Of a stretch of 43,394 nucleotides of DNA, positions 8,462 to 14,692 are shown one piece after another (position 1 is the stretch's first letter; every line of letters begins with the position of its first letter). Below the pieces are notes generated by a model. That model did no database searches, had not been told where the DNA came from, and was given only the letters and a program-made list of their open reading frames with translations. This DNA is from Beijerinckiaceae bacterium (GTDB taxonomy: Bacteria > Pseudomonadota > Alphaproteobacteria > Rhizobiales > Beijerinckiaceae): positions 1-43,394 of the forward strand of contig JAKONI010000220.1 of assembly GCA_022702015.1 (NCBI GenBank). Direction: 5' to 3'. The translations under genes and the position numbers were made by a program.

Positions 8462-9310
8462 ATGCGCCCTGTCCCCCTCCTGTCCGTTCTCATCATGGCC
8501 CTGGCGGCGACGGCGGCCGACGCCCAGCCGGCCCAGCCCGATCCCGGGCGGCCGGCGCCGCGCCGTCCGGTCCATCGGGCCCAAAGTCCCGCCCAGCCCA
8601 TCACCGTCTACGATGCCCGGATCGAGGCGGGCGACCTTCGCCTGTCGGGGTCGATCCGTAAGCCCGGCGCCATCGTGGAGATGGATGGCGACGTCTCGAT
8701 CCAGGCGGACAGCCGTGGCCGCTTCCTGTTCAAGCTGCCCTATCGGTCGTCCACCTGCGTCGTGACCCTCAAGAGCGGCGAGGACGAGCGCGAGGCGACC
8801 ATCGCCAACTGCGCGCCGGAGGGCCCCCCCGGCCCGCCCGGTCCGCAGGGAGCCCCCGGTCCGGCGGGCGAGAGGGGACCTGCGGGCGAGGCCGGTCTCA
8901 AGGGCGAGGCGGGGCCCAAGGGCGAGGCTGGGCCCAAGGGCGAGGCCGGTCTCAAGGGCGATACGGGTCCCAAGGGCGAGCAGGGCCAGCCCGGTGCGAA
9001 GGGCGAGGCAGGATTGCCGGGTCCCCGGGGCGAGCAGGGCGCGAAGGGCGACGCGGGGGCTCCCGGTCCCAGGGGCGAGCCCGGTCAAAGGGGTGAGCCG
9101 GGTCCCGCCGGCCAGCCCGGCGCGGCGACGGTGGCTCTCAGGCGCCTGCGCAAGACCGATTGCGCGGGGGCCTGCGCCGTGACCTGCGAGGGCGAGGAGG
9201 CGATGGTGGCCGCCCGCTGCCTCGGCGCCGGCACCCCGGCCTACGAGGGCGAGGGCGCTTCCTGTCCCTCCGAGGCCACGGGGATCGTGGGCTTCTGCGC
9301 CAAGCCGTAA
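8462..9310 (+). CDS. Secreted collagen-like (Gly-X-Y) repeat protein with Cys-rich C-terminus
   Basis: N-terminal signal-like segment ([22 protein letters not shown]), a carboxypeptidase-regulatory-like beta segment, 34 uninterrupted GXY triplets, then a C-terminal domain with 6 Cys. Confidence 0.85.
8822..9127 (+). repeat. Collagen-like GXY-coding repeat tract (34 triplets), including 18-bp-type near-tandem units ggcgaggc.ggg.ccaag
   Basis: [54 protein letters not shown]...[12 protein letters not shown] counted from the translation. Confidence 0.9.
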
Positions 9311-14080: not shown

Positions 14081-14692
14081 ATGCTGAAAGCCACCACGAT
14101 CGTCCGCCGACCGGCGGTGCGCGCCGACCGCGTCGCCGACACGATCGAACTCGACCATGCCGGACGGACGGCCCCGGCCGCCTCCCTCACCACCTCCGGT
14201 GGTTTGAGCGTCGAGGTCGCCCTGCCCAAGGCCGGGGCGCTCGAGGACGGCGACGCCCTCCGCCTGGAGGATGGCCGGCTCGTCGTCATCCGCGCCGGTG
14301 CGGAGGACCTGTTGGAGGTGCGCGCCGAGAACCCCGCCCGCCTGATGCGCCTCGCGTGGCAACTCGGCGGCAACCACGTTCCCGCCGAGATCGGCGGCGA
14401 CGGGCTGCATGTCCCCGCCTCGCCGGCCACCGCCGAACTGATCCGCGGACAGGGCTGCACCGCCACCCCGGTCCGCCGCGCCTTCCGCCCGGAAAAGATG
14501 GCGCACGACCACAGCAATTGCGGCCATGACCATGGCCACGATCACCACGATCACGGCCATTCGCACGATCATGGTCACGCCCACGACCATGGTCACGCGC
14601 ACGATCATGGCCATTCCCAGGGGCACGACCACGATCGCCACGGCCATTCGCACGATCACGATCACGATCACGGCCACGGGCATGGGCACTGA
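14081..14692 (+). CDS. ureE: Urease accessory protein UreE with long His-rich C-terminal tail
   Basis: [55 protein letters not shown]...[39 protein letters not shown]...; UreE fold signature (LGNRH-like [10 protein letters not shown]). Confidence 0.92.

Follow-up and report, generated by a model that had tools for sequence, protein, structure and literature searches.

A putative exported collagen-like protein with two uncatalogued folded caps in a Methylobacterium-type genome

In a 43,394-nucleotide stretch of DNA (here, the window) from a Methylobacterium-type assembly (4.6 Mb, 85% complete), we characterized an open reading frame at positions 8462 to 9310 (plus strand), whose 282-residue product belongs, judging from its sequence, with the exported bacterial collagen-like proteins and carries two noncollagenous caps predicted to be folded. 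Collagen-like proteins are already familiar from bacteria; the two cap families found here are listed in neither Pfam nor NCBIfam. Our preferred interpretation, to which we assign a probability of roughly two in three, is that the protein forms an exported homotrimeric rod whose folding is nucleated by the C-terminal cap and which serves at the cell envelope or surface as an adhesin or tether. The host type, Methylobacterium, is a plant-associated genus of methanol-using soil and leaf bacteria. Trimer caps limit the making of recombinant collagen and few bacterial ones have been characterized, and the two families described below could take annotation beyond the label "collagen-like protein."

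Protein layout and collagen tract

The frame, read without gaps, begins with a hydrophobic signal peptide of the Sec/SPase I type (residues 1 to 21; positions 8462 to 8524) that ends in ADA followed by Q, an AxA-Q type junction kept in orthologs, and a reading of the 282 residues found no lipobox. An initial annotation had called the protein secreted; the type I signal peptide speaks for export across the inner membrane, with secretion farther out being putative. Next come a Pro/Ala/Arg-rich linker (residues 22 to 45; positions 8525 to 8596), which varies among orthologs and is the part with the lowest conservation, and a 72-residue beta domain predicted to be Ig-like (the N-cap; residues 46 to 117; positions 8597 to 8812), with cysteines at 99 and 117. 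Three residues separate the N-cap from an unbroken (Gly-X-Y)34 tract (residues 121 to 222; positions 8822 to 9127), and the protein closes with a 60-residue predicted beta domain (the C-cap; residues 223 to 282; positions 9128 to 9307) ahead of a TAA stop codon (positions 9308 to 9310). The C-cap has the six cysteines ascribed to it initially, at positions 234, 238, 242, 253, 268, and 279. Orthologs across the genus share the same architecture, which argues that the frame and its layout are not due to chance; the long minus-strand open frames across the gene were rejected as shadow frames of GC-rich code. Scans for a sigma-70 promoter and a terminator were empty, a result that is uninformative at 71% GC.

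The gene is a core, vertically kept component of Methylobacterium/Methylorubrum. Of 36 genomes from the same genus, 35 yielded ortholog-level matches, the sole exception (G011) having a match at the paralog level only, and in one genome (G007) a stop falls within the N-cap match. Orthologs also occur in 80 named public records from Methylobacterium/Methylorubrum and near relatives; all eight cysteines are invariant in the 79 orthologs with both caps. The N-cap has a mean column identity of 84% (30 orthologs), and comparison with three relatives likewise placed the identity peak there. In the same three comparisons dN/dS was 0.13 to 0.21 for the N-cap, 0.25 to 0.27 for the tract, and 0.23 to 0.26 for the C-cap, values that point to purifying selection on all three parts.

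The initial description of the tract held up: the frame is open, the 34 triplets are uninterrupted and match the Pfam Collagen profile (PF01391; 67.9 bits against a cut-off of 27.2; E = 6e-19), and GEA is the commonest triplet (5 copies), with GPK (3) and GEP (2) also represented. Its assignment to the charged-pair type stands as well, since all 7 lysines occupy the Y position and all 7 are followed by glutamate or aspartate at X (KGE/KGD), where shuffling of the X residues gives an expectation of 2.5 such pairs and none of 5,000 shuffles reached 7. This arrangement stabilizes triple helices that lack hydroxyproline. Across orthologs 554 of 569 Y-position lysines precede E or D, and 81 tracts together hold 570 KG[ED] pairs against 188 ± 9 in shuffles, an excess indicating that charge pairing is kept while the tract sequence turns over. 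A single uninterrupted tract with perfect glycine periodicity was found in 79 of the 80 orthologs.

The near-tandem DNA units noticed at the outset are present within the tract (18/36/54-bp repeats spanning positions 8866 to 8985), with an 18-bp unit repeated 5.4 times at 8884 to 8980 and a 54-bp unit repeated 2.2 times at 8866 to 8985. The variation in length that had been anticipated was also observed between species: in the 79 orthologs with both caps the tract has 31.3 ± 4.6 triplets, equivalent to 27 ± 4 nm, with a range of 18 to 41 triplets (15 to 35 nm). The semivariance of tract length is 5.9 at cap distances below 0.02 and reaches a plateau of about 16 to 28 beyond 0.15; tract lengths thus drift fast between near-identical proteins and yet level off. 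Reviews mention recombinant collagens derived from Methylobacterium (PMC11942810, PMC7248025), and production of one from Methylobacterium sp. is reported (PMC11942810). The title of a 2010 article by Xu et al., cited in PMC3539881, claims triple-helix formation by recombinant bacterial collagen constructs; a Methylobacterium construct is reported to be among them.

The protein has partial counterparts among characterized collagen-like proteins. Streptococcal Scl1 and Scl2 (NCBIfam NF038330 and NF038329) similarly place a Gly-X-Y rod with charge pairs and no hydroxyproline beside a folded cap, but Scl proteins have an N-terminal V trimerization domain and an LPXTG wall anchor, whereas the window protein follows a two-cap plan and its sequence contains no LPXTG. 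Legionella Lcl (NCBIfam NF046116) is likewise an exported Gram-negative protein with a signal peptide, an N-terminal part, a collagen tract, and a C-terminal head, although its N terminus is an amphipathic helix and that of the window protein a predicted Ig-like domain. Assignment to any of these families was rejected, since the profiles matched the tract only and fell far below their cut-offs (NF046116, 67.9 bits against 500, residues 118 to 222; NF038330, 73.9 against 325; NF038329, 63.7 against 400). In the open-access literature that we searched, we found no study of a Methylobacterium collagen-like protein of this layout, and no description of the pair of cap families, of their distribution, or of any bacterial collagen that bears a resistin-like head.

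Two cap families and their predicted folds

Searched alone, without the tract, neither flank of the window protein matched Pfam or NCBIfam, and comparison of the caps with PDB sequences gave no convincing match; the flanks thus did not turn out to be a well-described family, the outcome that would have counted against the initial reading. Isolated, low-complexity-like matches of two C-cap members to Pfam DUF3586 (E = 6e-4) were dropped. We ran AlphaFold2 with the alignments generated in this analysis to obtain monomer models of each cap. The N-cap model is all-beta with seven strands (pLDDT 91.3), and its best PDB fold matches are the bacterial Ig domains of the adhesin SiiE (probability 1.00, TMq 0.67 to 0.76, E = 0.012 to 0.028); Pfam Big_6 also matched weakly in 9 of 30 members (best E = 0.0075). 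The N-cap is accordingly predicted to be an Ig-like beta sandwich, in agreement with the beta-type N-terminal domain first proposed, to which the two further cysteines can now be added.

The C-cap model has six strands (pLDDT 88.7). Among the best 50 PDB fold matches listed for it, ranks 1 to 3 are resistin/RELM-beta and ranks 4 to 16 the PCSK9 V-domain (probability 0.89 to 1.00, TMq 0.55 to 0.80, rmsd down to 1.8 to 2.1, E = 0.08 to 1.8), but these E-values are not significant, the best Foldseek value being 0.08 and none reaching 0.001. No sequence link to resistin or PCSK9 was recovered with Pfam Resistin or PDB sequences. On both grounds we take the resistin-like match as a prediction of fold rather than of homology, and the resemblance may be convergent. 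Nothing clear was found for the C-cap in a viral fold library, and the C-terminal domain of Lcl was not among the best 50 PDB matches listed. In the predicted fold the C-cap would share with resistin and the PCSK9 V-domain a six-stranded, cysteine-rich jelly roll. In resistin such a head is joined to two others through a trimeric coiled coil (PMC8253364), whereas the stalk of the bacterial protein is collagen; the PCSK9 V-domain contains three such subdomains, each with three disulfides and hence six cysteines (PMC3820617).

Profiles built from the caps alone, with no Gly-X-Y sequence, were run against genomes from the order, an N-cap being counted as collagen linked if at least 5 Gly-X-Y triplets follow it and a C-cap if at least 5 precede it. 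With all loci pooled, 118 of 123 distinct N-caps precede a tract and 104 of 107 distinct C-caps have one ahead of them. Three C-caps depart from this rule, namely a frame-broken ortholog and two apparently spurious matches; most of the N-caps that do so seem to be paralogs that have decayed or diverged. The suggestion that the flanks act as trimerization or disulfide caps thereby gains support, both from this near-constant adjacency to Gly-X-Y sequence and from the resistin/PCSK9-V fold predicted for the C-cap. A class-wide search with both profiles (337 genomes each) recovered matches in the own genus only, so that at this sensitivity the cap families look restricted to the order.

Outside the genus the C-cap occurs in 15 proteins from several families of Hyphomicrobiales, in every case directly after a tract (16 to 43 triplets). 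By eye, 14 of the 15 look like small lipoproteins, and the remaining one is cut at a contig end. They resemble the window protein in the position of the C-cap but differ in having a lipobox directly ahead of the tract, no N-cap, and mostly four cysteines rather than six. Most of these relatives lack exactly Cys1 and Cys2, a joint loss which suggests that Cys234 and Cys238 form one disulfide. The modules of PCSK9 have the disulfide pattern 1-6/2-5/3-4, from which the C-cap pattern, to judge by this joint loss, probably differs. A second C-cap-like protein is encoded in the genome of the window itself (L202:1044-1442, minus strand, contig C25); it is likely a lipoprotein, of 132 residues, with 16 Gly-X-Y triplets and a four-cysteine cap.

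The N-cap also recurs in paralogs, several per genome, in Methylobacterium and other families. These have the same predicted Ig-like domain with both cysteines directly before a tract, but differ in the C-terminal part, which may be a disordered Pro/Arg tail, a diverged six-cysteine cap, or larger beta domains. One paralog in the genome of the window (L002:1438-2157, plus strand, contig C249) combines the N-cap and 30 triplets with a disordered tail in place of the C-cap. A separate paralog group (L069, with neighboring loci of the L067/L068 type) joins the N-cap to the diverged six-cysteine cap, with the motif LRVQ..C...C...C....VNGTC...MDESSIYC....ARAIC, and in G007 a paralog of this type has its frame broken between tract and cap.

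Proposed rod and alternative readings

In the mechanism we propose, the type I signal peptide would carry the protein to the periplasm or beyond, where, after disulfide formation, three C-caps would associate through their resistin-like jelly-roll heads. The C-cap trimer would set the register of the chains, and the triple helix would then zip from the C to the N terminus. The resulting rod would be about 29 nm long (34 x 0.86 nm), capped on one side by three Ig-like domains and on the other by a trimeric knob. By analogy with the lipoprotein relatives, whose N terminus is anchored by lipid and whose C-cap lies at the free end, the knob would be the distal, ligand-facing end of a cell envelope or surface tether or adhesin. 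The protein showed neither an outer-membrane anchor nor a secretion signal, which makes surface location an assumption. A knob on a collagen stalk has a Gram-negative precedent in Legionella Lcl, which has a lollipop shape in electron microscopy; its C-terminal head forms a trimer and is believed to initiate folding (PMC11162425).

The choice of folding nucleus can be questioned, as the N-cap might instead be the trimerization domain, in the manner of the Scl V domain, leaving the C-cap as a ligand-binding head only. The N-cap is the most conserved part of the protein, and it joins tracts with many C-terminal parts, including a disordered tail alone. Ig-like domains are usually monomeric, however, while the C-cap is predicted to have a trimer-head fold, and the C-cap lipoproteins presumably fold in the absence of any N-cap. 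We favor the C-cap as the nucleus because it occurs in tract lipoproteins as their sole folded domain, and consider trimerization through the N-cap unlikely.

Less probable still, in our estimation, is that the trimer stays in the periplasm as a strut with a rod length that fits the envelope width, peptidoglycan or the inner membrane being held by one cap and the outer membrane by the other. A signal peptide unaccompanied by an outer-membrane or secretion signal would suit such a role, as would the lipid at one end of the lipoprotein relatives and the leveling of tract length at a mean of 27 ± 4 nm, on the order of a Gram-negative periplasm. Against this, the leveling could arise from a balance of repeat slippage or from helix stability, a range of 15 to 35 nm (18 to 41 triplets) is wide for a strut, and no peptidoglycan-binding domain was recognized in the protein. 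It is also conceivable, and consistent with the absence of hydroxyproline, that the tract fails to fold into a stable triple helix in vivo and simply links two monomeric domains as a flexible, extended spacer. We regard this as very improbable, since a spacer needs neither perfect glycine periodicity (79 of 80 orthologs) nor near-total KGE/KGD pairing; recombinant Methylobacterium sp. collagen has moreover been reported as produced (PMC11942810), and the title of Xu et al. (2010) claims triple helices for such constructs.

The compact, disulfide-rich 60-residue C-cap is likely a minimal nucleation cap, given that it is the only folded domain of the mini-collagen lipoproteins. A resistin-like fold would also link a vertebrate hormone fold to bacteria. 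We raise more tentatively the idea that the C-cap is the founding member of a bacterial family of trimer heads with the resistin fold, repeatedly recruited as the folding nucleus and distal knob of Hyphomicrobiales collagen rods, whether lipid-anchored mini-collagens or secreted, Ig-capped proteins; this goes further than we would presently expect to hold, but if true, bacteria possess the resistin-type arrangement of a head on a trimeric stalk, with collagen as the stalk.

Gene neighborhood

The gene order in the window is rpoN-glmU-aldolase-glmS-collagen-flavoprotein-TerC-AmpD-DjlA-UreE, with rpoN named by eye. Among named records, Methylobacterium sp. J-076 and J-067 come nearest, with N-caps 90% and 85% identical to that of the window protein, and only these two of the 80 records have the same order throughout. 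The TIGR03862 flavoprotein lies beside the collagen gene within the examined flank in 69 of the 80 records. A phage or mobile-gene origin was rejected, as the caps alone have no PHROG match and the neighbors are conserved chromosomal housekeeping genes (glmU, glmS, flavoprotein, TerC). The only viral-contig match to the gene is a Methylobacterium-type copy in an entry catalogued as viral (L203; IMG/VR UViG_2643221835_000002), some 0.7 kb short of the contig end; this copy probably belongs to chromosomal sequence flanking a provirus call.

Most orthologs are oriented divergently to an ImuA-like/ImuB-like mutagenesis pair. The interval between gene and pair contains GTTC-N7-GTTC, a sequence of the alphaproteobacterial LexA-box type that lies about 340 bp ahead of the N-cap codons (for example, L117:5656-5670 and L146:5571-5585, as well as most orthologous loci). 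In the lineage of the window, glmS occupies the position of the ImuA/ImuB-like pair and the GTTC-N7-GTTC box is absent. Farther along the window, the UreE-like protein has a long C-terminal His/Asp-rich tail (HGHDHDH...; positions 14526 to 14692) that is apparently a metal-binding extension.
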